A stretch of DNA of 36,335 nucleotides. It comes from Lachnospiraceae bacterium. Its GTDB lineage: Bacteria; Bacillota; Clostridia; Lachnospirales; Lachnospiraceae. Position 1 is the stretch's first letter. Each line of letters opens with the position of its first letter. The notes beneath the pieces were generated by a model. The model was not told the origin of the DNA. It saw nothing but the letters and a program-made list of their open reading frames with translations, and made no database searches. The stretch is taken from positions 1 to 36,335 of the forward strand of contig JAFYDI010000031.1 in the NCBI GenBank assembly GCA_017544835.1, given 5' to 3'. A program made the position numbers and the translations under genes. Shown one piece after another: positions 24,454-36,335 of this stretch.

Positions 24454-24482
24454 TTGACAATTTCTTTTTCCGATAGTATTCT
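24454..24482 (+). promoter_or_regulatory. Promoter of the 28-codon leader ORF
   Basis: TTGACA (24454-24459) and TATTCT (24477-24482) are separated by 17 bp. Transcription would start about 24 nt before the short ORF. Confidence 0.7.
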
Positions 24483-24512
24483 AACTACAACCTTTAGAAA
24501 GGATTCAAGAAT

Positions 24513-24599
24513 ATGGCACGTTTTTCAGTCACTTACAGACATACCGCTCCAATGACCACTATTACTACCGATAATGGTCTTCTTTGCGTATATGTTTAG
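24513..24599 (+). CDS. 28-residue leader peptide, MxxFSVxxR family
   Basis: This short ORF begins MARFSVTYRHTAPM, continues with a Thr-rich TTITTDNG stretch and ends LLCVYV. AAAGGA (24498-24503) lies nine bases before the ATG and a consensus promoter lies upstream. The peptide start matches the second leader ORF at 31015 (F-S-V and R at the same positions, then Pro and Met). A competing-helix/terminator pair begins right after its stop codon. No known family is recognised; the TTITT run recalls threonine-type attenuator peptides but the peptide at 31015 lacks it. It is more likely a regulatory leader than a secreted peptide, since no signal sequence is present. Confidence 0.65.
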   Translation: MARFSVTYRHTAPMTTITTDNGLLCVYV

Positions 24600-24600
24600 T

Positions 24601-24647
24601 CGGACTGAATAGGTGATTGTAATACAGTAAGCTTAGCCACCTGTCCG
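24601..24647 (+). promoter_or_regulatory. Putative antiterminator helix of attenuator 1
   Basis: CGGAC (24601-24605) and AGGTG (24611-24615) can pair with the continuous stretch CACCTGTCCG (24638-24647), giving 10 bp with a 5-nt bulge. This uses the 5' arm of the terminator at 24637-24667, so the two folds exclude each other. The 5' strand begins two bases after the leader ORF's stop codon, within reach of a terminating ribosome. Confidence 0.55.
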
Positions 24648-24667
24648 TTGCAGACAGGTGGTTTTTT
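24637..24667 (+). terminator. Intrinsic terminator of attenuator 1
   Basis: CCACCTGTC (24637-24645) pairs with GACAGGTGG (24653-24661), followed by TTTTTT. It lies between the 28-codon leader ORF and the methyltransferase gene. Confidence 0.88.
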
Positions 24668-24670
24668 GTT

Positions 24671-24721
24671 AGGCGACGAGCCAAGCGGCTGATGTGCTTG
24701 CACAATCAGACATTTGGCGAC
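24671..24721 (+). repeat. 51-bp dispersed repeat, copy A
   Basis: This segment aligns without gaps to 27671-27721 at about 33 of 51 positions, with GACATTT-GCGAC nearly identical. Copy A contains an imperfect hairpin (CTGATGTGC / GCACAATCAG inside GCCAA / TTGGC). Both copies follow directly on an intrinsic terminator. Confidence 0.5.
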
Positions 24722-24810: not shown

Positions 24811-25635
24811 ATGGATTTACATGACTACAAAGACGTAGCGGAGAATTACGACAGATACCTTGAGGTAATGTACACGGAAGGGCAGGACAATCATGAGGGC
24901 TTTCAGGAGTTTTACTATGAACTTGCCGAGAAATATGGTGCTGGCGGAGTGGTTGATATTGCCTGCGGTACGGGTGCGGTGCTGCTTTTCCTTGCCGAGA
25001 GAGGAATAGATGTTGACGGAACCGATTTATCCGAAGAAATGTGTAAGGTTGCGGATGCCAAGGCCAAAGAAAAAGGTCTTGACTTAAACATATATCCCGC
25101 GGATATGACGAAGTTTTCTTCGGGCAGAAAGTATTCTCTTGCGATTATAGCAAGAAGCGGATTTATGCACCTTCCTACGCAGCAGCTTCAAAAAGAAGCG
25201 CTTATGAATATTTCAAAGCAGCTTCTTCCGGGCGGAATTCTTACGTTTAATACGTTCGACCCCTGGCCGCCGATTCAGGCAGCGCAGATGAACGCGACGC
25301 CAGATGATTATTCTTTCAGGATTGAATATGTCAATAACAACGGCAATAAAGAAAAAATCTACAATGCGATTTCCTATAATCCATATACGCAGCAAATGTA
25401 TGGCAACTGGAAATTTGAGGAGTACAATGAAGCCGGAGAGATAATAGGCGAGCGAGTGAGACCGCTCCTTATGAGACAGACGTATCGCTATGAAATCTTC
25501 CTTCTTGCGGAACTCTGCGGATTTGAAGTTCTTGATATATACAGAGGCTACAAGGGCGATAAGGAGGATCTAAACGACCCTTCTTCCGCAAGCAAGTACC
25601 GCAGTAATTTGATATGGATACTTAAGAAAAAATAA
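24811..25635 (+). CDS. SAM-dependent methyltransferase, class I
   Basis: This 274-residue protein has motif I VVDIACGTGAVLLFLAERG, the strand-2 acidic loop VDGTDLSEEMC and the later LLPGGILTFNTFDPW. The start chosen (MDLHDYKDVAENYDRYL) fits the family; the frame stays open upstream to a GTG at 24694 but that start has no ribosome binding site. It may be controlled by the attenuator upstream. The next gene, a phosphodiesterase-like enzyme, is 24 bp downstream, so the two form an operon. The methyl acceptor is unknown. Confidence 0.88.
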   Translation: MDLHDYKDVAENYDRYLEVMYTEGQDNHEGFQEFYYELAEKYGAGGVVDIACGTGAVLLFLAERGIDVDGTDLSEEMCKVADAKAKEKGLDLNIYPADMTKFSSGRKYSLAIIARSGFMHLPTQQLQKEALMNISKQLLPGGILTFNTFDPWPPIQAAQMNATPDDYSFRIEYVNNNGNKEKIYNAISYNPYTQQMYGNWKFEEYNEAGEIIGERVRPLLMRQTYRYEIFLLAELCGFEVLDIYRGYKGDKEDLNDPSSASKYRSNLIWILKKK

Positions 25636-25659: not shown

Positions 25660-26763
25660 ATGAAGAAAAATTTGGTATGGCCCGACTACAAAAACTGTAT
25701 AGCCAATCTTCCCAACTCAATACTTAAGAAGTTTGGAGTTAAGCCGGTGGGCGACACCCTTCCGCTTTTTGATAAGTTTATGGACAAAGAATACAAAAAC
25801 GTGGTTGTTCTTTTACTCGACGGAATGGGTAAGGCGATTATTGAGAAGCACCTAAAAGAGGACGGTCCCTTCAGGACTCACCTTGAAGGAATATATAAGT
25901 CGGTCTTTCTTTCGACAACTGTTGCGGCGACTACTTCGGTTATGTCGGGACTTCAGCCTTGTGAGCACGGGTGGCTTGCCTGGGAGAACTATTATCCGAC
26001 GATAGATAAGAATGTAGTGGTGTTTCTCAACTATCTTCAGGGCACTGGGACGCCTGCGGCCGATTACAATCTGGCATGGACATATACGCCGTATGAGACT
26101 GTAATGGACAAAATCAATAAGGCCGGCGGTAAGGCATACGCTGTGGCGCCGTTTTTGAATCCCAAATGCAATTCTATAGAGAAAATATGCGCCAATATCA
26201 AAAAGTTATGCAAGGAACCCGGGCAGAAATATATCTACGCTTACTGGAATCAGCCCGACGGCCTGATGCACAACCTCGGTACGGATGCCAAGGCTGTTCA
26301 CAAGGCGCTGGTTCATATGGAAAAGAAAGTTTCGAGGCTTGCCCAAAAGCTTGACGACACTCTTATTATAATAACTGCAGATCACGGCCACATTGATAAC
26401 AGGACTGTTGTTTTGCAGGATTATCCCGCAATAATGGATTGCCTCGTACGTCTTCCCGCATTTGAGCCGAGAGTTATGAATTTCTTTGTCAAAGAAGGCA
26501 AAGAAAAGACTTTCGAGGAGGAATTTAATAAGGAGTTTAGCGAAGACTTCCTGCTGATGCCTATGAAAGAAGCGATTGAAAAGAAGCTGTTCGGACCGGG
26601 CACACCGCGTGAAGAGTTCGCGGGCATGCTTGGCAATTACCTGGCAATAGGTATAAGCGATTTGTCTGTTTTCTTTGCCGAGGAGCCTCTTGCGTCTATG
26701 CACGGAAGCATTACCGAAGATGAAATGCTGATACCGTTAATTGCTTTTGATACAAAAGGCTGA
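25660..26763 (+). CDS. Alkaline-phosphatase-superfamily phosphodiesterase (nucleotide pyrophosphatase-like)
   Basis: This 367-residue protein belongs to the type I phosphodiesterase/nucleotide pyrophosphatase group. Visible metal-site motifs are LLLDGMG (Asp), TTVAATTSVMSG (likely nucleophile Thr), IITADHGHID (Asp-His-His) and SMHGSIT (His). No signal peptide is present, so it acts inside the cell. Family members cleave phosphodiester or phosphonate substrates; the substrate here is unknown. It follows the methyltransferase by 24 bp. No clear terminator was found after it. Confidence 0.88.
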   Translation: MKKNLVWPDYKNCIANLPNSILKKFGVKPVGDTLPLFDKFMDKEYKNVVVLLLDGMGKAIIEKHLKEDGPFRTHLEGIYKSVFLSTTVAATTSVMSGLQPCEHGWLAWENYYPTIDKNVVVFLNYLQGTGTPAADYNLAWTYTPYETVMDKINKAGGKAYAVAPFLNPKCNSIEKICANIKKLCKEPGQKYIYAYWNQPDGLMHNLGTDAKAVHKALVHMEKKVSRLAQKLDDTLIIITADHGHIDNRTVVLQDYPAIMDCLVRLPAFEPRVMNFFVKEGKEKTFEEEFNKEFSEDFLLMPMKEAIEKKLFGPGTPREEFAGMLGNYLAIGISDLSVFFAEEPLASMHGSITEDEMLIPLIAFDTKG

Positions 26764-27891: not shown

Positions 27892-29883
27892 ATGGAAAAC
27901 ACTGTAAAGCAAAAACACACTAAAATTAAGAACAAGCTGTTGATTTTTCTTTTGCCGGCAGTAGTAGTGGCAATCCTGGTACTCGTAATCATTTCGGGCT
28001 ACTTATCAAGCAGAAGCCTTACAACAATGGCTACGTCTCAGTTGAATTCTTCTATTTCGAACCAGGCTGATAATATTGAGTCCTGGCTGAACGAAAATCT
28101 TCAGAATTTCAACACGGTTAAGCTTCTTATTGAGAAGACAGCTCCCACGGACGAAGAACTTCAGGCCATGATTGATGCAGGCTATGGCTTTAATGCATAC
28201 TGCAAAAACGGACCTTACGTTGCCACGGAAAAAGGACAGGTCTTCAAAGCAGAGGCTTCTACAAAGGTTACGGACAATGTAACCGGCCAGGAGTGGTTCA
28301 AGCAGGGTATTACCAGAGTTAACCTGGCATACGGCAGAACCTACAGAGATGCGGACGGAACAAACGTTATAAGTGCTTCCGGTATCTTAAATGACGGCAC
28401 CGGAGAAATAAAGGTTTTTGCAGCCGACCTGACCCTTGAACAGATCAGTATTATCGTTAACTCCCGGGTTAAGATGGATAACGCGGCTTCTTTCCTTGTG
28501 GACTTAATGGATGACACCATTCTTGCTCACAGAGATAATGCAAGAGTATCCACAAAGCTCAGTGAGAGCGACAGCAATAAGCTGATGGCCGACATAGCCA
28601 AAAAAGTTAAAAAGAGAAATTACATCTCAGCAACGATGGACGGTTATGTTGTTGCATTTAAGACTATAGCCGGTACCGACTGGGTACTCGTTTCCTATGT
28701 CGACCAGAAGACTATCATGAAGGACGTCAATAAGTTAACCCTTACCCTTGTAATTATCGGTGCGGTTGCAATCGCCTTTATAGTTTTGATTATTAACTTT
28801 GTGGTATCCAAGGTTATAGCTCCTATCAGCGGTATTACAAAGAATATTACGGATATGTCCATGGGTGACTTCACAATTGAAGTTAAACATGACAGCAATG
28901 ACGAAATCGGTCTCATGAGCAATAAGGTAAGTGAATTCGTGGCAAATATGCGCGGAATGCTTTCCTCTATTAACGATGAGTCCATAAAGTTAAGAGAACA
29001 GTCGGAAAGCTCCGACCAGGTATCCAAGAGCATGTACGAAGCTTCGCAGTCGCAGGCTGAAGCAATGCAGAACCTTAACAATACCGTTGACCAGCTGGCT
29101 GTTGCGGTTAATGAAATTGCAGAGAATGCAACAACACTTGCTATGGTTGTATCCGATACAAAGGACAACTCACAGCAGGCTGACGCAAGCATGAAAGAAA
29201 CCGTTGAAATCAGCAGAAACGGTCGTGCGGATATGGAACAGCTTGCTAAGGCAATGCAGGAAATTAAGACCGGAAATGATGAACTGGTAGATTCCATAAA
29301 CGAGGTAGGAAAGTCCTCCGAAGAAATCACCAAGATTGTCGGACTTATTGCAGAAATCGCAGAAGAAACCAATCTTCTTTCGCTTAATGCAAGTATTGAG
29401 GCTGCAAGAGCAGGTGAGTCCGGTAAGGGATTTGCGGTTGTTGCTACCGAGATCGGTAAACTGGCACAGAACTCCGCAGCAAGCGCAGACAACATTTCAC
29501 GACTTATCAATGAAGTCAGCGAAGCTATCAGCGCAGTAGTTAAACAGGCAGAAACCAGTGCCAAGAATATTGAAAAGAACAGTGCTCTTATCGACGAAGC
29601 GGTTGCTACCTTCGATCAGATTTACAACAACATTGAAAAGTCCAATGAACTAATCGATAGGATGATTCGGGATGTTCAGAAAGTTGACGATGTTGCTACA
29701 AACGTTGCGGCTATCTCCGAAGAGCAGGCTGCAAGTACTGATGAAATCCTTGAAACCAGTAAGCAGATGGTTGAACAGGCCAACAGTATCACGCAGCACA
29801 GCCACGAGGTGGCAGACAACTCACAAGAACTTGCAAAGACCTCTGAGATGCTTACATCTTACGTAAATCAGTTCAAGATTTGA
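27892..29883 (+). CDS. Methyl-accepting chemotaxis protein (Cache-type)
   Basis: This 663-residue receptor has membrane helix 1 (about residues 11-38), an extracytoplasmic Cache-like sensor domain ([30 protein letters not shown]), membrane helix 2 (about 282-308), a HAMP domain and a long cytoplasmic coiled coil. The signalling hairpin tip is intact near residue 486 ([22 protein letters not shown], then [15 protein letters not shown]). It would control CheA and so swimming. The ATG at 27892 follows AAGGAG; an in-frame ATG 12 codons upstream has no ribosome binding site. It is 22 bp from a binding-protein gene. No che genes are in the window. Confidence 0.94.
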
Positions 29884-29905
29884 GGCAGAAAGGAGGAAGT
29901 CTGAT

Positions 29906-30901
29906 ATGAAAAAAATAATTAAGAAATCAATTATGGTATTTGCAGTAGCGGCTCTTCTGATTGCTTCTTTGTCCGGATGCGGTAAGTCCGGCGGCTCAGG
30001 CGTAAGCGGCAGCGGCACAAGAATACTTATGACACTTCATGATGATGCAGATACATTCCTTAATACCCTGGTGGAAGGAATGAATCAAACGGCTTCGTCT
30101 ATGGGTGTAACCCTTGATATTGTGTATTGTTCGGGTGACCCCGCTATACAAAAGCAGCAGGTTGAAAAGGCAGTGTCTGACGGATACGATGCAATTATCT
30201 GCCGTCTTGCGGATGCTTCCACCATACTTCAGATGGAAATCGCAGCAGTTAACACTCCTATAGTGTTTATCAACAATGAACCCAGTTCCGATTACCTTAA
30301 GGGTGACAAGTTCATTTATGTAGGTTCCTATGAGCAAGATGCCGGAAGATTCCAGGCAGAATATATCTGGAACGGTCTCGGAAAGCCTTCATCACTTAAT
30401 GTAATTATCTTAAAGGGTATGGCAGGACATGCAGCTGTTCCTCAGCGAACCGATGCGGTTAAATACTTCTTTAAAGACAATAACGTTAATGTAAATTATG
30501 TATTTGTTGACCACGGTGACTGGTCCGATACAGTAGCTTACGACAGACTTGAGACCTTCAAACTGACAAAGCAGCCCTTCGATTGCATAATCGCCAATAA
30601 CGACCCCATGGCTCTCGGCGCCATCAACTGGCTCAAAGACAACGGTTACGACACTCACAAGATTCTTGTAGCCGGAATCGATGCAACCGCCGGCGGCTGC
30701 GACGCAATCAGAAGCGGCGACCTTTACATGACGGTTTTACAGGATACCGCCAAACAGGGTGAAGCGGCTCTTGTAAGCGCTGTAACACTTGCGAAAGGAA
30801 AATCCGTTTCAACTCTCGACGGAGCTACCGAAGACCTTAAGTATGTATGGGTTCCTTTCGTTCCCATCACACCTCAGAACATCGATCAGTATATCCATTA
30901 A
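29906..30901 (+). CDS. Sugar-type substrate-binding lipoprotein (Peripla_BP_4)
   Basis: This 331-residue protein has a lipoprotein signal (FAVAALLIASLSGCGK) and a type I periplasmic-binding fold of the RbsB/MglB class: GMNQTASSMGVTLDIVYCSGD, QVEKAVSDGYDAIICR, TPIVFINNEP, FDCIIANNDPMALGAI and VAGIDATAGGCDAIRSGDLYMTVLQD. These are the usual ligand-contact regions for sugars. No ABC permease or ATPase follows, and a terminator ends the unit. With a chemoreceptor 22 bp upstream, a role in presenting ligand to the receptor is likely. Confidence 0.92.
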   Translation: MKKIIKKSIMVFAVAALLIASLSGCGKSGGSGVSGSGTRILMTLHDDADTFLNTLVEGMNQTASSMGVTLDIVYCSGDPAIQKQQVEKAVSDGYDAIICRLADASTILQMEIAAVNTPIVFINNEPSSDYLKGDKFIYVGSYEQDAGRFQAEYIWNGLGKPSSLNVIILKGMAGHAAVPQRTDAVKYFFKDNNVNVNYVFVDHGDWSDTVAYDRLETFKLTKQPFDCIIANNDPMALGAINWLKDNGYDTHKILVAGIDATAGGCDAIRSGDLYMTVLQDTAKQGEAALVSAVTLAKGKSVSTLDGATEDLKYVWVPFVPITPQNIDQYIH

Positions 30902-30909
30902 AAAGAAAC

Positions 30910-30939
30910 TGCCGCATCGGTATTTCCGGTGCGGCATTC
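30910..30939 (+). terminator. Intrinsic terminator after the receptor/binding-protein unit
   Basis: TGCCGCATCGG (30910-30920) pairs with CCGGTGCGGCA (30926-30936), followed by a short T-rich stretch. Confidence 0.8.
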
Positions 30940-30956
30940 TTATGCTCAAAAATTGT

Positions 30957-30985
30957 TTGACAACTAAGCCTCATCCATGTATATT
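30957..30985 (+). promoter_or_regulatory. Strong promoter of the 34-codon leader ORF
   Basis: TTGACA (30957-30962), 17 bp, TATATT (30980-30985), with TG just before the -10. Transcription would start near 30992, about 23 nt before the short ORF. Confidence 0.8.
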
Positions 30986-31014
30986 GTTAACATCATCGAT
31001 GTAAGGATGAACTT

Positions 31015-31119
31015 ATGAAACACTTTTCTGTTGAAAACAGATATTACGAAGAACCCGCAATGTATATTATTATGCATTGTGCTTTTTCCATACCTGATTT
31101 TTCAACCGGACAGGAGTAA
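31015..31119 (+). CDS. 34-residue leader peptide, MxxFSVxxR family
   Basis: This short ORF begins MKHFSVENRYYEEPAM, continues YIIMHCAFSIPDF and ends in STGQE. AAGGA (31003-31007) lies seven bases before the ATG, and a near-consensus promoter lies upstream. The start matches the 28-residue leader at 24513: Phe4, Ser5, Val6 and Arg9 coincide, followed by Pro and Met near residue 14-16. An intrinsic terminator and a competing helix follow its stop codon, and the P-loop-GNAT gene begins 35 bp after the terminator. No known peptide family is recognised. No signal sequence is present. Confidence 0.68.
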   Translation: MKHFSVENRYYEEPAMYIIMHCAFSIPDFSTGQE

Positions 31120-31154
31120 TAAGTCATCAAAAACAGTTTTCTTTGACCGCTTAT
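31119..31154 (+). promoter_or_regulatory. Putative antiterminator helix of attenuator 2
   Basis: ATAAG (31119-31123) can pair with CTTAT (31150-31154), and TCA (31124-31126) with TGA (31144-31146), with AAAA/TTTT stacking inside and a 3-nt bulge. This uses the 5' arm of the terminator at 31146-31177. Its first base is the last base of the leader ORF's stop codon, so a ribosome finishing the ORF would melt it. Confidence 0.5.
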
Positions 31155-31177
31155 CTTCTCGGATAGGCGGTTTTTTT
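31146..31177 (+). terminator. Intrinsic terminator of attenuator 2
   Basis: ACCGCTTATC (31146-31155) pairs with GATAGGCGGT (31162-31171), running into TTTTTTT. It sits between the 34-codon leader ORF and the P-loop-GNAT gene. Confidence 0.88.
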
Positions 31178-31212
31178 ATTACCCGGGATATCAAAAAAAG
31201 GAGAAGTGCAAA

Positions 31213-32268
31213 ATGGATTTGGTAGTAATAATCGGAAGCGGAGCCGTGGGCAAGATGACCGTGGGCCAGGAACTCATGAAAATAACGGACTTCAGGCTTT
31301 TTCACAATCACATGGCCATTGAACCCGTTATTGAAATATTCGGGTACTATTACGGTGCTGCCGTAGCCAAAATAAGAGATGCGGTCTTTGACGAGTTTAT
31401 AAACAGTGACAATGTGGGCATGATTTTTACTTACATGTGGGCCTTTGATATGCAGGAGGACTGGGACTACATTAAACATGTAACCGACAAGTTCGAGGCA
31501 ACCGGCGGAACCGTATATTATGTGGAGCTTGTGGCCGACCGGGCAGTGCGCTTGGAAAGAAACAAGACAGAAAACCGCCTGAAAAATAAAGCTTCCAAGT
31601 GTGACCTGGAGATTTCCGAGCAAAGAATGCTGCGTGAAGAGTCCAAATACAGAATCGTCAGCAACGACGGAGAAATTCCCTTCATAAACTACATTAAAAT
31701 TGACAACACAAATCTCGAGCCGGCAGAAGTGGCAAGAAGAATTAAGGATTTCTTTAAACTGCCCGACAAAACCATAACCGACATATACAGAATGGTTAAG
31801 CTTGACCCCATCAAGCCGCATGAGGTAGAGATTCTTCATGAAATGCAGGTAAGAAGCTTCATGCCACTCTACGAGAAGTACCACGACGAAGGTTCTCCCG
31901 CCATAGAGACTGTTGACAGAATCCGCGCAAGGTCCGAAGCCGAAAACAGACAATACTACTTCATTACCTACAGCGGAGCAAGGGTCGGAGCCATCAACAT
32001 TGCCAAACGTCCTACTGAGGAAAAGGAAGACATTTTTTGGATATCGCCCATTTTTGTGGACCCGAAGTATCAGAACAAGGGTATTGCCCAAGCAGCGATT
32101 CACAAAGCCTTTAAGCTTCACCCCGAAGCCAAAGAATGGCGCCTTGACACAATTCTTCAGGAGCCCGGCAACTGTCATCTGTATGAAAAATGCGGATTTA
32201 AACGTATCGGTGAAGAAAAAGTCATAAATGATGTGATGACCTTGGTTGATTATGTAAAAGAAATGTAG
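31213..32268 (+). CDS. P-loop NTPase - GNAT acetyltransferase fusion
   Basis: This 351-residue protein has two parts. Residues about 1-180 are a small shikimate-kinase-like P-loop protein (VVIIGSGAVGKMTVGQELM, then FRLFHNHMAIEP); the GK is followed by Met-Thr, as in the related group of AAA-type kinases. Residues about 190-351 are a GNAT domain (VRSFMPLYEKYHDEG; FWISPIFVDPKYQNKGIAQAAIHKAF; YEKCGFKRIGEEKV), with QNKGIA as the acetyl-CoA loop. AAGGAG precedes the ATG. The gene may be controlled by the attenuator upstream. The double-domain layout would allow a substrate to be both phosphorylated and acetylated, but the substrate is unknown. Confidence 0.88.
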   Translation: MDLVVIIGSGAVGKMTVGQELMKITDFRLFHNHMAIEPVIEIFGYYYGAAVAKIRDAVFDEFINSDNVGMIFTYMWAFDMQEDWDYIKHVTDKFEATGGTVYYVELVADRAVRLERNKTENRLKNKASKCDLEISEQRMLREESKYRIVSNDGEIPFINYIKIDNTNLEPAEVARRIKDFFKLPDKTITDIYRMVKLDPIKPHEVEILHEMQVRSFMPLYEKYHDEGSPAIETVDRIRARSEAENRQYYFITYSGARVGAINIAKRPTEEKEDIFWISPIFVDPKYQNKGIAQAAIHKAFKLHPEAKEWRLDTILQEPGNCHLYEKCGFKRIGEEKVINDVMTLVDYVKEM

Positions 32269-32281
32269 AGTGTACTTAGGC

Positions 32282-32320
32282 AAAAAAGTCGGAGACCGAT
32301 GGTAGCCATCGTCCTCCGAC
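32282..32320. terminator. Bidirectional terminator
   Basis: GTCGGAG (32288-32294) pairs with CTCCGAC (32314-32320), with an inner CGATGG/CCATCG stem. An A-run (32282-32287) on the plus strand gives a T-run for the minus-strand gene. It serves the convergent P-loop-GNAT and DUF6033 genes. Confidence 0.85.
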
Positions 32321-32336
32321 CTTTGGTGCCTATTGT

Positions 32337-32966
32337 TTAAGCGATGTTACGAAGCTTCTGAAGGAAATCTTCCACAGATAGTGCTTCAATTTTGATGGGC
32401 TCGAAAGCCTTCTTTGCTTCGGCTTTTTCGCGTACGTCACGTTCATTTAAGGATTTCTTTTCGGGTTTATCAGTTTCTTTAGCCTGTTCGGCTTTTTCTT
32501 CGGCTGCTTTCTTTATATCTGCAAAAATCTTTATTTCTCCGTTATCCTTAACCGAGAAATTTATTGCGTCAGCAAAGAAATTGCCTTCTGCGGTCTCACC
32601 AAGAAGCGATGCAAAGCCTGCGTCCTTTGTAATCTTGTCGGACATCTTCACTATCGTATCTAAGTGATTAAGTTTCTCCTGGGCATAATTCTCGTCGTCA
32701 GCCATTTTCTCAAGCTCTTCGGCATCAAAGATTACCGAGTACTCTTTGTCGGTGTCGGTAGCAAGCGCTCTTAAGTCTTTGCCACCGGATACCTGAAAGT
32801 CGAAATCAGGTCTTTCTTCTCTTAACTTAGCCAGAAAATCTGCTGCTTTCTTAGAAAGTTTGCCTTCGCCGTTTTTTGCCTTTACGCCTCCTGCTCGCTT
32901 GGCGTTTTCGGTATGTACGGCGTCTAAATGCTTGTTGCTCTTGTTATAACCGTTTATACCTACCAT
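32337..32966 (-). CDS. DUF6033-family protein
   Basis: This 209-residue hydrophilic protein resembles DUF6033, a group seen in Lachnospiraceae. The pattern LSKKAADFLAKLREERPDFDFQVSGG, then YSVIFDAEELEKMADDENY, is followed by a highly charged, probably helical tail (KKAAEEKAEQAKETDKPEKKSLNERDVREKAEAKKA). No signal peptide or membrane helix is present, and the function is unknown. An AGGAGGAAC site lies just before the ATG. It is divergent from the small membrane-protein gene at 33144. Confidence 0.78.
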   Translation of the reverse strand: MVGINGYNKSNKHLDAVHTENAKRAGGVKAKNGEGKLSKKAADFLAKLREERPDFDFQVSGGKDLRALATDTDKEYSVIFDAEELEKMADDENYAQEKLNHLDTIVKMSDKITKDAGFASLLGETAEGNFFADAINFSVKDNGEIKIFADIKKAAEEKAEQAKETDKPEKKSLNERDVREKAEAKKAFEPIKIEALSVEDFLQKLRNIA

Positions 32967-33143
32967 GCTTGTTCCTCCTTGACAAATTCGAAATCCTTTT
33001 CAAACGGAAAGTATAGGCAAGTATCATACTACCAAAATAGAATTACCCGCTACTTAACAATTATTAATTATGTAACATACGGATTGACAAACTTGCCGTT
33101 GAATCCTCACAATAATATGTAGTGGCTGTATAGAGGGAATGCT

Positions 33144-33509
33144 ATGAATGATAAAAACAAATACGGAATAAAAATGCGTAAGTTCTGTAAGGAGCACGAG
33201 GAAGCCGTCTGCAGGGAACTCTCTGAACACGGAGCATCGCAGAAGCTTTTAGACAGGCACCTTGAGAAACTTAGATGGCTGCAGCATGAGAGGCTGATTC
33301 ATCTGATAGTTCTTTTGCTGACAACTATATGTGAGTTGCTCGCGTTATATCTGGCACTTGTGGCGCTTAAGACGGCCGTTTCACTTGCGGTGTCACTTTT
33401 GATTCTTGCGGTTTTGTTCTTTTATGTTCTGCACTATTTCTTTCTCGAGAATACCACGCAGCATTGGTATAGGATAGCAGAAGAAATAATGGACGAACTT
33501 GATAAATAG
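33144..33509 (+). CDS. Small two-helix membrane protein, unknown function
   Basis: This 121-residue protein has a charged N-terminal half (HEEAVCRELSEHGASQKLLDRHLEKL), two adjacent membrane helices (about residues 52-75 and 77-100) and a short charged tail. The ATG follows GAGGGA. The first MutS-like gene begins 32 bp downstream with its own site (AAGGGGGT), so the two may be co-transcribed. No family is recognised. Confidence 0.7.
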   Translation: MNDKNKYGIKMRKFCKEHEEAVCRELSEHGASQKLLDRHLEKLRWLQHERLIHLIVLLLTTICELLALYLALVALKTAVSLAVSLLILAVLFFYVLHYFFLENTTQHWYRIAEEIMDELDK

Positions 33510-33541
33510 TCTGGTGGGGATACAACAATAAGGGGGTTGCA

Positions 33542-35032
33542 ATGTTCAGCATATTAGTCAAAGACGATGAGAAATTATCCGTTAAAGTGCCCTATGCGCT
33601 TATTTCGGATTTAAACATCGACAGAATAATCCGGCTCGTGACGGCGGGGCTTAAGGACGAAGTAAAGAAGCTTTACGACACATTTCCCGCGGACGCTACA
33701 GAGGCGGAATATCGCAGGGAGATTTTTGCCGACATCAAGAAAGCAGGTGTGGCAGAAATCTTTTCGCGTTTTCAAGATATCCTTAATGAGTGGGCGGACT
33801 GCAAGGAGAAAAAGGAAAAGTTTGATTTAAGCCTTCAGCAGTGCGTGTGGTACATAAGGGAGGTCCACGCCTATCTCGCGGCGGTCGAATTGTTAAAAGA
33901 AAAACTACCTCCGCTCGGACTTGAATCGGAAGGAATGCGGGGATTGCTCACGTTTCTTGACGAATATACAGGTACCGAAGAGTACCAAAGCTTCAAGGAA
34001 ACCACATACGCTCTCTATGACGAGCTTATGGGCTTCAGGGTTAAGATTACCTACACAAGAGACAAGTTTGTGATATCCGAAGGCTCCGGTAAGGGCGCTT
34101 ACCAAGAGGCACTCGGCGAGAATTTCAATTGCAAAGATATGAATTTTAAAAACCCGTATTTAAATGGTGTCGAGACGGCAGACATAGAGTACGAGACCGC
34201 CAAGCTTCTTATGAAGAAGAATAAAGCTTTCGCAGAATGGGCCGAGGCGTTTCTTCTTAATGCCAAGGATTATGTCAGGGAAGAAATTCTTCTTTTGAAG
34301 AAAGAAGTAACGTACTATACCGCCTATTATCGCTTCATGGAACGTATGCAAAAGCAAGGATTGCGCTTTACATCCGGACAGACCGAAGGCGACAAGTTTT
34401 CGGTATATGGTCTCTACGATCTTGCTCTTGCGTGTGCTTACAGTGAAAGCGGCAACAATGTGGTGCCCAACGATGCTGAGTTAAAGTCGGGCGAAAGCTT
34501 CTTTGTGGTTACGGGTCCCAACCAGGGCGGTAAGACTACTTTTGCAAGAAGTCTCGGGCAGCTCGTGTTCTTTTACAAGATGGGACTTGATGTGCCGGCT
34601 GTTAAAGCTACGCTTCCTTTTTTTGGTACGCTTCTTACGCATTTCTCGGTAGAAGAGAGTAATGCTACGGGGCGAGGCAAGCTTGTGGATGAGCTTGAGA
34701 GGCTTAAGCCTATTATGGAGAAGCGCGAACACAACGCATTTATTGTAATCAACGAACTTTTCACCACCGCGGCGCACCTCGATGCATGCGTGATGGGCGA
34801 GAAGGTCTTAAAATACCTTATCGGTGAAGGCGCGAAGGGCGCATATGTAACGCATTTAAATGAACTGTCGGAGGCAGACGAGTCTGTGGTAAGCCTTACT
34901 GCAGAAGTGGATGAGAATCTTAACAGGACCTTCAAAATTGCCAGAAAACCGGCTCGCGAATATGTGGGCACCAACGCTTTGACGGTCAAATACGGACTAA
35001 CTTACGAGCAGATAAAGGAGAGACTGGCATGA
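33542..35032 (+). CDS. MutS-like ATPase, tandem copy 1
   Basis: This 496-residue protein is a MutS-superfamily ATPase without the N-terminal mismatch-binding and connector domains of MutS. Residues about 1-300 are helical (lever/clamp-like) and residues about 300-496 are the ABC-type ATPase: Walker A VVTGPNQGGKTTFARSLGQ near residue 325, then LLTHFSVEESNATGRGKLVDELERL and AFIVINELFTTAAHLDA. In the last motif the Walker B Asp is replaced by Asn, while the Glu is kept. It overlaps the next MutS-like gene by 4 bp, which suggests a heterodimer. The biological role is unknown. Confidence 0.88.
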   Translation: MFSILVKDDEKLSVKVPYALISDLNIDRIIRLVTAGLKDEVKKLYDTFPADATEAEYRREIFADIKKAGVAEIFSRFQDILNEWADCKEKKEKFDLSLQQCVWYIREVHAYLAAVELLKEKLPPLGLESEGMRGLLTFLDEYTGTEEYQSFKETTYALYDELMGFRVKITYTRDKFVISEGSGKGAYQEALGENFNCKDMNFKNPYLNGVETADIEYETAKLLMKKNKAFAEWAEAFLLNAKDYVREEILLLKKEVTYYTAYYRFMERMQKQGLRFTSGQTEGDKFSVYGLYDLALACAYSESGNNVVPNDAELKSGESFFVVTGPNQGGKTTFARSLGQLVFFYKMGLDVPAVKATLPFFGTLLTHFSVEESNATGRGKLVDELERLKPIMEKREHNAFIVINELFTTAAHLDACVMGEKVLKYLIGEGAKGAYVTHLNELSEADESVVSLTAEVDENLNRTFKIARKPAREYVGTNALTVKYGLTYEQIKERLA

Positions 35033-36335
35033 ATGTAAATTTACTTTATCAGAATCGTAACCACAGTGATTCCGAAGCGTATCTTGACTGGAACGAAATA
35101 GTTAAGGATTTGGGGCTCGACATATTATTCCGCGTCGCGAGAAAAGATTCGGTGTTAGGCATCGGAACCAATTATAACGCACACCGCGAATACGAGAACC
35201 TGTCGCTGATAGTTAAGCGAATAATGGCAGTTGCACTTACGGAAGAAGAAATTGCCTACAGGCACGAAATCATGAAAGACTGCCTAAAGCATGAGACCTT
35301 CATCGTGAAGCTCTTCGTAATCTGCCAGCAGACCATCTCCGAGTGGGAGAAAAAGGGTCGCAACAAAAAGCGCAGCGAATCCAAAGAATCCGGCGGCGGA
35401 CTGACAACAGATATAGAAGTGCTGAAGCTTTTATACGATGCGATGAAAGATATTAAGCAACTTTTTGCAGAGTACGAAGAGGGCTTAACGTCGCGAGGAT
35501 TAATTGAGCTTAACAAGCGCATTAATGAAGCGTTCTCAGAGGAGAACGCCGAGAATTTAAGACAGGTGCTCGACGACCTTTCTTTCTTTGCCGACACGAA
35601 GATTAAAGAGGTCAAGCGCGGTTATTATGAGCAGATTAATCCAACTATCGTCATTGACGTGGGCGTGGCCGACGGTCTTAAATTCACTGACATCAAGCTT
35701 GATGAGTTTAAGTGCAAGGTAGAAGCCTACAGAAATCCTTACGGCATCATGGCCAAGCTCCGCGGGCAGATAAGCAAGCTTAAGAAGTATACGATACCGA
35801 TTATCGGCAATCAGTCGCTTGAAGAAGACGCTCAGAAACTGGAAAAAGAATCCGTAGCTTTCGTAATGATCTGCCTTAAGAATACCATCAACGAATACGG
35901 CAGCTTTATAGACAGGCTACGTTTTGAAACCGGCTTTTATTTTGGCGCGATTAATATCAAGAACGAGATGAAACGGTTCAGAGTAGGATACTGCTTCCCC
36001 GAGGTCGGTTCTTTTACCACTTTGGAATTTGAGAACCTTAAGGAAGCCTCCATGGCCATGAGCCAGCATTGTAACACCATCGGTAACTCCGACAACCTCG
36101 ACGGTAAGACACTTGCGGTTATCACCGGTGCCAATCAGGGCGGTAAGTCTACGTTCCTTCGAAGCGTGGGCCTTGCGCAGATTATGATGCAGTGCGGTAT
36201 GTTTGTGGCCGCTGATTCTTTCAAAAGCGGACTATTTAAGAACATATTCACCCACTTCACCCGTCGCGAAGACAGTGCCATGAACAGCGGTAAACTCGAC
36301 GAGGAACTTAAGCGCATGGGCAAGATTGTGGAGAA
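35029..36335 (+). CDS. MutS-like ATPase, tandem copy 2 (partial, runs off the window)
   Basis: The reading frame starts at the ATG overlapping the previous stop (ATGA) and stays open for 435 codons to the window end, so the gene is incomplete at its 3' end. It begins MNVNLLYQNRNHSDSEAYLDW, is helical through the middle (IEVLKLLYDAMKDIKQLF) and has Walker A ITGANQGGKSTFLRSVGLAQ near residue 366, then FTHFTRREDSAMNSGKLDEEL. It is a diverged homologue of the preceding gene, and like it lacks the mismatch-recognition domain. The translational coupling suggests the two form one complex. Walker B lies beyond the window. Confidence 0.88.
   Translation, partial: MNVNLLYQNRNHSDSEAYLDWNEIVKDLGLDILFRVARKDSVLGIGTNYNAHREYENLSLIVKRIMAVALTEEEIAYRHEIMKDCLKHETFIVKLFVICQQTISEWEKKGRNKKRSESKESGGGLTTDIEVLKLLYDAMKDIKQLFAEYEEGLTSRGLIELNKRINEAFSEENAENLRQVLDDLSFFADTKIKEVKRGYYEQINPTIVIDVGVADGLKFTDIKLDEFKCKVEAYRNPYGIMAKLRGQISKLKKYTIPIIGNQSLEEDAQKLEKESVAFVMICLKNTINEYGSFIDRLRFETGFYFGAINIKNEMKRFRVGYCFPEVGSFTTLEFENLKEASMAMSQHCNTIGNSDNLDGKTLAVITGANQGGKSTFLRSVGLAQIMMQCGMFVAADSFKSGLFKNIFTHFTRREDSAMNSGKLDEELKRMGKIVE

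Follow-up and report, generated by a model that had tools for sequence, protein, structure and literature searches.

A putative ribosome-responsive attenuator with a long upstream open reading frame precedes diverse enzyme genes in Lachnospiraceae

What decides whether the gene at 31213..32268 of this Lachnospiraceae contig is transcribed? The window, that is, the whole stretch of 36,335 nucleotides analysed here (from a genome assembly of 2.87 Mb in 121 contigs), encodes at this place a P-loop kinase-like domain fused to a GNAT acetyltransferase, and between the promoter and this fusion gene lie a short upstream open reading frame (uORF) and an intrinsic terminator, a layout that the original prediction had read as a ribosome-controlled attenuator. 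Our analysis points to the same class of control: the leader is probably a transcription attenuator which reads the state of ribosomes on its uORF in the manner of the vmlR and cplR leaders, with a long uORF, and its copies would constitute a cis-encoded translation-stress regulon. Judged from sequence, this reading builds on conserved parts, matched helices, a retained uORF and the placement before a limited set of enzymes. The parts of the unit in the window, including the strands of the antiterminator (AT) and the anti-antiterminator (AAT), are as follows.

30957..30985, + strand: sigma-70-type promoter TTGACA-N17-TATATT, 11 of 12 consensus positions
31003..31007, + strand: Shine-Dalgarno (SD) sequence AAGGA of the uORF, read from sequence
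31006..31016, + strand: 5' strand of P0, the base helix of the AAT, in the spacer between SD and start (partner 31119-31128; centroid fold, duplex computation, arm swaps)
31015..31119, + strand: 34-codon uORF MKHFSVENRYYEEPAMYIIMHCAFSIPDFSTGQE, an open reading frame (ORF) with SD
31030..31107, + strand: long hairpin inside the uORF, 5' half with 3' half (fold, arm swaps)
31057..31082, + strand: apical hairpin of the uORF rod (fold, arm swaps, RNAalifold compensatory pairs)
31119..31131, + strand: stop region, with the P0 3' strand 31119-31128, the 5' strand of the outer antiterminator helix AT1 31119-31123 and the 5' strand of the inner helix AT2 31127-31131
31142..31154, + strand: 3' strands of AT2 (UUUGA, 31142-31146) and AT1 (CUUAU, 31150-31154), overlapping the 5' arm of the terminator
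31145..31177, + strand: intrinsic terminator, stem 31145-31172 (12 pairs) and T-tract 31171-31177
31213..32268, + strand: controlled gene, P-loop kinase-like domain fused to a GNAT acetyltransferase (PF00583, E 2.3e-12; predicted P-loop structure)

The promoter is the sole 11/12 match among the 15 promoter-like sites in 28000-36335 (12.9 +/- 3.8 in shuffles), in agreement with the near-consensus promoter proposed earlier, and the short ORF with its ribosome-binding site was found as described. The ATG at 31213 stands 40 nt past the terminator stem and 35 nt past the T-tract, the distance originally given. A folding check suggested for 30992-31213 came out in favour of a structured leader (z -4.55 against dinucleotide shuffles, 0/200 as good). 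The layout itself, with an antiterminator overlapping the uORF stop, was likewise borne out. The unit is more than chance: the relatives L058/L059 retain it from promoter to terminator, and an RNA model finds other leaders in Lachnospiraceae. Two elements went beyond that prediction, namely a second copy of the leader at 24454-24663 and P0, a helix that joins the start and stop regions of the uORF. In the window leader P0 joins 31006-31016 to 31119-31128 through ten base pairs interrupted by a single bulge (duplex computation); it is seen in the centroid fold and absent from the minimum-energy fold, and its stop-region bases (within 31119-31128) are shared with the antiterminator.

A leader family in Lachnospiraceae

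The starting set comprised 80 fusion-protein loci and further relatives. Part of the leaders came in by way of a single gene, and many of the contigs are metagenome assemblies. A first upstream scan flagged terminators in 20/103 regions, including two leaders of an unrelated type (F-type, L038 and L042), L062 with another kind of ORF, and the duplicates L139/L059 and L032/L115, and it underestimates the leader frequency of the fusion gene because leaders often head operons 1-3 kb upstream. Searches with single peptides gave little: the window uORF matched only itself and hits of E 0.045 or worse in 150 genomes of the family, a group-B peptide gave none in 397 genomes (a weak null, without a genome known to match), two leader peptides gave none in plasmids, and phages yielded two records at E 0.9. 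An aligned-peptide profile and then an RNA profile were therefore needed.

The profile of 14 peptides, run on 397 Lachnospiraceae genomes, found leaders ahead of other genes too, including the second copy in the window. A profile of 20 leaders was then run on 2,828 small ORFs preceded by a ribosome-binding site and recovered leaders at E <1 in 19 further loci. They all share the strand of the fusion gene and often head multi-gene operons; three other hits at E <1 were set aside. L171, L112 and L174 (profile E 0.0088, 0.43 and 0.62) were left out by judgement, and L001, L031, L138, L153, L139, L140, L151, L152 and L059 as duplicates, together with L115 in the terminator tally, while L141, whose leader is identical to that of L081, was kept out of the alignment (A3). 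L102 and L135 are truncated by contig ends. A terminator was called by rule in 39/40 leaders, the remaining one being L106, which has a visible hairpin with a shorter T-run and was matched by the peptide profile without being in A3.

A covariance model (R1) was built from the 38 leaders of A3, with only the apical hairpin and the terminator in its structure, P0 and AT2 being absent from it. On the 80 fusion loci R1 found 40 leaders at E 5e-6 or better (30 training rows, 2 duplicates of training rows and 8 new), all on the coding strand; three weak minus-strand hits in these loci lie on terminators. Across the 397 genomes of the family, 25 were matched at E 1e-3 or better. The strong places (<1e-6) numbered 20 in 16 genomes, with three in G004, two in G393 and two in the genome of the window, and leader copies reach up to three per genome. 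In another four genomes (G002, G252, G140, G200) the uORF or the genes present speak for a true leader, which brings the credible genomes to about 20, and 5 of the 25 (G087, G325, G264, G039, G115) rest on partial or short chance-like hits only. The partial hits L200, L201, L204, L205, L209 and L214 resemble plain terminators. Among 295 genomes of the order 10 were matched; the five outside the family are weak (E 7.8e-7 to 7.7e-4) and none of them has an SD-uORF by rule, and the leader therefore looks confined to Lachnospiraceae in the genomes sampled. Rfam gave nothing at gathering score across the whole window, both leaders being sub-threshold matches only.

Two loci stand apart. The leader at L062:1411-1588 looks decayed, its stop region and terminator being retained and the uORF with its ribosome-binding site gone, and L098 (upstream of 3001) has the fusion gene behind a different uORF and a terminator unmatched by R1, either a divergent leader or an independent attenuator.

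That these parts came together by coincidence, or are the simple terminator of the upstream gene beside a chance ORF, has next to no probability. The upstream gene does already have a terminator of its own (30910-30936), and in 40/80 fusion loci the flanking sequence retrieved, which in some cases stops at a contig end, shows no leader hit at E 5e-6, but every one of the 40 hits lies on the coding strand of the fusion gene, 8 of them being new, and covariation, the matches of R1 in other genomes of the family and replication in untrained leaders refute it.

Matched helices and a retained frame

Pairing was judged by an arm-swap test, in which the duplex energy of cognate arms was compared with that of arms swapped among the 38 leaders in 20,000 permutations; the column alignment was not trusted base by base, related leaders are in the permutation set and the energies are model values. 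No permutation reached the cognate energy for P0 (z -7.0), AT2 (z -6.2), the apical hairpin (z -7.7), the terminator (z -9.6) or the two halves of the uORF (z -12.4), each at 0/20,000, and four control segment pairs gave z -0.95 to +1.31. The uORF halves had first been entered as a control and turned out to be the strongest helix. In 13 untrained leaders the result was replicated for P0 (28/20,000), AT2 (164/20,000) and the uORF halves (0/20,000), with two controls at z -0.90 and +1.08. Compensatory pairs from RNAalifold support the apical hairpin, and in 37/38 leaders the uORF rod has a z-score below 0 relative to shuffles, with a mean of -3.84. P0, the uORF hairpin and AT2 are thus matched leader by leader. 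A count of the longest run separates P0 less sharply than the energies (>=7 pairs in 15/38 cognate against 21% of swapped arms), and an earlier arm-swap test by group on 16 leaders was weak, with mixed z-scores for the antiterminator, the larger set being decisive. Antiterminator and terminator are geometrically exclusive; AT2 covaries and AT1 does not. For the inner part of the antiterminator, the TCA/TGA pairing proposed earlier gave way, as folding prefers UCAAA (31127-31131) with UUUGA (31142-31146).

The open frame is retained as well. The 38 aligned leaders have an SD-uORF by selection, so we looked at 26 untrained hits covering the whole of R1, of which 19 carry one (the 13 replication leaders, L203, L217, L089, L075, L106 and L086). 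The other seven are L062 and the matches of 64-111 nt L202, L212, L213, L215, L216 and L118; such short matches without a terminator were taken for chance hits. Of the 20 untrained hits that reach 170 nt or more, 19 possess an SD, a start codon and a frame that stays open for 27-44 codons, L062 being the exception. The other two reading frames usually close early, the codon composition of the uORF is frame-specific, and 29/38 leaders have their stop codon at -6..+9 relative to the reference column. The peptide itself is poorly kept, with a mean ungapped identity of 14% among the 13 untrained uORFs, and pN/pS is 0.87 (276 pairs of 50-90% identity among the 38 leaders). As the structure is kept and the peptide is not, selection acts mainly on an RNA rod with the frame threaded through it.

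An RNA structure far better conserved than its peptide would also suit a ligand- or protein-binding RNA, such as a riboswitch or a protein-controlled antiterminator, in which the open frame is incidental or serves as a timing device. We consider this very unlikely, because SD, start and a frame of 27-44 codons persist in nearly all of the long untrained hits, the stop codon lies in the switching region in most leaders, the mean column identity of A3 is only 51% and Rfam offers no match.

The opposite explanation, a classical leader-peptide attenuator, holds that the peptide is sensed, the ribosome stalling at specific codons or nascent-peptide motifs under amino-acid or charged-tRNA shortage or at a drug-specific arrest peptide. 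In its favour Tyr is over-represented, with >=2 Tyr in 48/51 uORFs and TAY codons at 10.6% in frame vs 4.7% in three fusion genes; leaders of the unrelated F-type are Tyr-rich too, and in the window leader AT pairing stays raised to codon 12 when folded with a mock ribosome. Against it stand the low peptide identity and the pN/pS given above, the uORF of L210, which has no Tyr at all, and the conserved Tyr and Val codons, which on a by-eye reading face one another across the uORF hairpin. Among the arrest motifs sought in the 51 uORFs, RLR and IFVI were found in 0/51 each and [RK]X[RK] in 10/51. A trp/ilv-type run of regulatory codons with matching biosynthetic genes was also not found, Tyr being enriched yet absent in L210 and the typed downstream genes forming no biosynthetic set for one amino acid. 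Taken with the evidence on both sides, peptide sensing is an unlikely account of this leader.

Sensing of Tyr/His/Asn/Asp (NAY) codons was considered separately. NAY codons make up 24.4% in frame vs 18.1% in three fusion genes and one alignment column reads NAY in all 38 leaders (by eye), but as the main signal it was rejected, since CAG occupies the matching place in 4/13 untrained leaders (by eye); it is also weakened by its bases lying in or beside the conserved hairpin.

Ribosome position and the proposed switch

How would a ribosome on the uORF act on these helices? The leaders were folded with a mock ribosome whose footprint ran from 14 nt behind the first base of the P-site codon to 15 nt beyond it, on transcripts ending before the 3' arm of the terminator. 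Over the 38 leaders mean AT pairing was 0.35 without a ribosome and 0.58 when one sat at the start codon, having risen in 27 leaders and dropped in 5 (Wilcoxon p 4.6e-5). It ranged from 0.34 to 0.40 at codons 3-20; of the codons tested in this range, 3 and 5 gave no significant change and 20 was lower by 0.01 (p 0.0027). With a ribosome at the stop codon it fell to 0.12, being lower in 30/38 leaders and higher in 2, which upholds the earlier claim that a ribosome at the stop blocks the antiterminator. The companion claim, that a ribosome stalled earlier lets the antiterminator form, is unsupported as worded, since over the set it applies to the start codon alone, with nothing significant at codons 3 and 5 and the slight fall at codon 20. 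In the window leader alone the rise does reach early codons: AT was 0.44 without a ribosome, 0.79 at codon 1, 0.55-0.79 over codons 3-12, 0.71 at codon 12, 0.45 at codon 20 and 0.02 at the stop. Over the 38 leaders only the start-codon ribosome raises AT, because the availability of the stop region hinges on the start:stop helix.

These results suggest the following switch. Without a ribosome the uORF would fold into a single long hairpin, its start region paired with its stop region at the base (the AAT); the stop region would then be kept away from the terminator arm, the terminator would form and transcription would end early. With ribosomes running through, one at the stop codon would mask the stop region and the terminator would still form. 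If a ribosome were held at or near the start, by an inhibitor of initiation or of the first step or by general translation failure, the base of the AAT would be open and the stop empty; the free stop region could then pair with the 5' arm of the terminator while RNA polymerase passes, and the enzyme genes would be transcribed. Translation of the uORF, the direction of the response, the inducing agents and a role of the genes in detoxification or repair of translation damage are inferred. A mechanism of the VmlR/CplR kind is the best reading, with induction by initiation-stalling drugs predicted by the mock-ribosome folding. More tentatively, and with somewhat less than an even chance in our estimation, the leader could be a start-stop comparator RNA, which monitors the two ends of a ~35-codon uORF together, an occupied start with an empty stop meaning that ribosomes enter without getting through, and which was copied before many unrelated detoxification and repair operons, giving a WhiB7-like regulon without a trans-acting regulator.

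Several results weigh against a ribosome-reading switch of this kind. The outer helix is the first of these. The competing pairing originally proposed, AUAAG (31119-31123) with CUUAU (31150-31154), can form, but it did not covary among the 38 leaders (z -1.2, 2,250/20,000) nor in the 13 untrained ones (z -0.44); AT1 fails the arm swap because both strands vary little, and the most that the data give is a preference of its arm for the stop region when windows within a leader are compared (Fisher p 5.6e-4, the stop region ranking first in 18/38). The AT hairpin barely beats shuffles (mean z -0.93, below 0 in 27/38) and is weak in the window leader, at -5.9 kcal/mol vs -16.7 for the terminator, and P0 is negligible in several leaders (L107, L134). 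The stop codon lies beyond -6..+9 in 9/38 leaders, 5 of them at -7 or -11 and four with the stop 14-21 nt upstream (L058, L104, L087 and WIN2, the second copy in the window), and the pN/pS of the uORF indicates weak selection on the peptide. In the folding, the ribosome footprint is assumed and the second copy has low AT throughout (0.08 without a ribosome, 0.26 at the start, 0.01 at the stop). In an earlier run on seven leaders with a longer 5' flank, the window leader gave 0.20 without a ribosome, 0.95 at the start and 0.03 at the stop, and L071 was flat at 0.77 from no ribosome to codon 19. As the two runs differ and L071 is flat, the size of the AT effect depends on settings and leader. 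In full transcripts at equilibrium the terminator won in all seven leaders, so readthrough must be kinetic, decided while RNA polymerase passes.

Controlled genes and known systems

The genes behind the leaders were typed. At the 20 strong places they are acetyltransferases (8), methyltransferases (5, of which the one in G216 was typed from its first residues only, at a contig end), phosphodiesterases (4), nucleoside phosphorylases (2) and a reductase (1, pyrroline-carboxylate-reductase-like). One of the phosphorylases is GNAT-fused and stands behind a short ORF. The phosphodiesterase of G096, typed by similarity, lies directly behind the leader, that of G393 is fused to a protein of ~137 aa and those of G007 and G073 lie behind this protein. 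Beyond the strong places, weaker or other hits were seen ahead of an ABC transporter (L211), a gene resembling the L194 methyltransferase by eye (L203) and, in three genomes, an RtcB RNA ligase directly behind the hit (L199:1727-2956, L198:1635-2861 and L197:1677-2279). The L199 hit is full length with a uORF (E 2.6e-5), and those of L198 (E 3.7e-6) and L197 (E 3.0e-6) are partial, the latter with no uORF by rule. The ABC transporters among first genes were typed at family level only, not as ABCF or exporter. The genes heading these operons are a limited set of enzymes, as raw counts that were not set against the genome background. The Tyr-rich uORFs together with RtcB at the three weaker hits may point to damaged or uncharged tRNAs, besides drugs, as a trigger.

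Are they resistance genes? For the fusion protein in the window, the AlphaFold model of the N-terminal P-loop part (mean pLDDT 89) has as its closest PDB structure the tunicamycin-resistance protein 2vli (E 7.6e-7, 14% identity), followed by sugar kinases, shikimate kinases and PFKFB, which suggests a small-molecule kinase-like fold and does not name a substrate. The model of the GNAT part is near PaiA and other GNATs, with SpeG, RimL, AAC(6')-Im and MccE within the first 50 matches. No NCBIfam model matched the fusion at cutoff (best 21 bits vs cutoffs of >=86 among the models listed), including aminoglycoside and other named acetyltransferase resistance families, the GNAT models of Pfam being passed, and PADLOC gave no match to it. 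A resistance gene is plausible from the modelled tunicamycin-resistance-like fold and the GNAT domain. It is also possible, though somewhat less likely than not, that the leader is regulated as proposed and that its genes, which poor translation would induce, encode enzymes for general stress or for metabolite damage and not for resistance. The reductase, the phosphorylases and RtcB would suit such a set, as would the missing NCBIfam and PADLOC matches of the fusion, while the acetyltransferases, the ABC transporters and the tunicamycin-resistance-like P-loop fit detoxification, by resemblance only.

The known systems are compared here as far as the accessible parts of the cited papers describe them. 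The leader of Bacillus subtilis vmlR, whose induction is concluded to depend on ribosome arrest during initiation on its uORF, likewise has an SD-driven uORF in a 5' AAT hairpin, followed by an antiterminator and an intrinsic terminator; its uORF has three codons (MIN) in a bulge of SL-1, whereas here the hairpin consists of the 27-44 codons themselves and the start region pairs with the stop region; the vmlR product is an ARE-ABCF whereas here acetyltransferases, phosphodiesterases, methyltransferases and RtcB follow (PMC9226507). In Clostridioides difficile cplR, characterised by reporter tests with lincomycin and retapamulin, a 5' hairpin also sequesters the uORF ahead of a terminator/antiterminator switch, but the uORF consensus is MR[I/M], the terminator sequesters the SD of the gene as well and the gene family is another (PMC10201436). 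E. coli toiL-topAI-yjhQ resembles our leader as proposed in having a multipurpose uORF responsive to ribosome inhibitors of several classes, with tetracycline and retapamulin sensed at the uORF start codon; unlike here it is Gram-negative, acts on topAI translation and Rho and not on an intrinsic terminator, and controls the toxin-antitoxin pair topAI-yjhQ (PMC12121999). In VmlR, CplR and toiL alike, control depends on ribosomes arrested on or close to the start of the uORF (PMC9226507, PMC10201436, PMC12121999). Listeria hflXr/rli80 also combines a uORF with an antiterminator and an anti-antiterminator, antibiotics relieving premature termination, but its 14-aa uORF carries the RLR arrest motif that none of the 51 uORFs has (PMC6310831). 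The mycobacterial WhiB7 regulon offers a parallel to the proposed breadth, a broad gene set being co-induced by ribosome-targeting antibiotics; there a trans-acting activator coordinates the genes, whereas the genes studied here would be coordinated by the copies of a single cis RNA (PMC10727445).

Of the traits of the VmlR/CplR type, the leaders therefore share the SD and start of the uORF and a hairpin base that overlaps and excludes the antiterminator (P0 being negligible in some leaders), and they differ in the length of the uORF (27-44 codons against 3-4) and in the gene (P-loop-GNAT in the window against ARE-ABCF). From VmlR/CplR the leaders are set apart by a uORF about ten times as long, whose two ends join to make the AAT, by a different and diverse gene set and by several copies per genome. 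A literature search brought up no account of these leaders; supplements and most subscription papers lay outside its reach, and it is no proof of absence. In the accessible parts of the cited papers ribosome-controlled attenuators are described one gene at a time, whereas here one RNA marks many operons of gut and rumen bacteria. The leader would predict which unannotated acetyltransferases, methyltransferases, phosphodiesterases and kinase-like proteins share a response to translation trouble, it brings the substrates of such enzymes, and hidden inducible resistance in commensals, within reach of direct tests, and it is a potential ready-made sensor of ribosome stalling.

The second copy in the window heads two further enzyme genes. 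As a whole it spans 24454-24663, and the element 24491-24663 scores E 1e-18 with R1, which was trained on it.

24454..24482, + strand: promoter TTGACA-N17-TATTCT of the second leader, read from sequence
24513..24599, + strand: uORF MARFSVTYRHTAPMTTITTDNGLLCVYV of the second leader (peptide profile E 1.2e-8, the leader itself being among the 20 training rows)
24635..24663, + strand: terminator stem of the second leader (terminator rule, model R1)
24811..25635, + strand: first gene, SAM methyltransferase (PF13649, E 7.3e-16; homologs behind L185 and L188)
25660..26763, + strand: second gene, type I phosphodiesterase/alkaline-phosphatase superfamily (PF01663, E 1.5e-14)

The start of the methyltransferase at MDLHDYK was picked by homology, the ORF opening at 24694, and homologs of the phosphodiesterase sit directly behind the leaders L154, L107 and L134. 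The ~137-aa protein (MKYYRVHTADIAYLTQQPRGIFTAVWKLVD...) recurs at L076:1971-2381, L107, L134, L104, L113, L156, L193 and L206, sometimes fused to a phosphodiesterase, and its L076 copy matched neither Pfam nor PADLOC. The third copy of the leader in G393 (L217, G393:C35:3109-3306, minus strand) heads a gene MTHKDQALQLFSEHFHCSQAVLAAFAPECGL... that by eye is like a gene of L076. In L127, on a contig labelled Treponemataceae, the fusion gene occurs at 58% identity, by transfer or binning error. Elsewhere in the window, 33542-35032 holds a MutS domain V ATPase gene (PF00488) far under the NCBIfam cutoffs for MutS, MutS2 and KamC. Besides, the second, unrelated Tyr-rich leader (F-type, MNQ..HSRRYMYMYYRRIAL) precedes stand-alone GNAT homologs, with a terminator following where inspected; its loci are L038/L146, L042, L041/L149, L147 and L150, and also L148, and it was found in 5/150 genomes, in 4/5 of them upstream of a GNAT gene.

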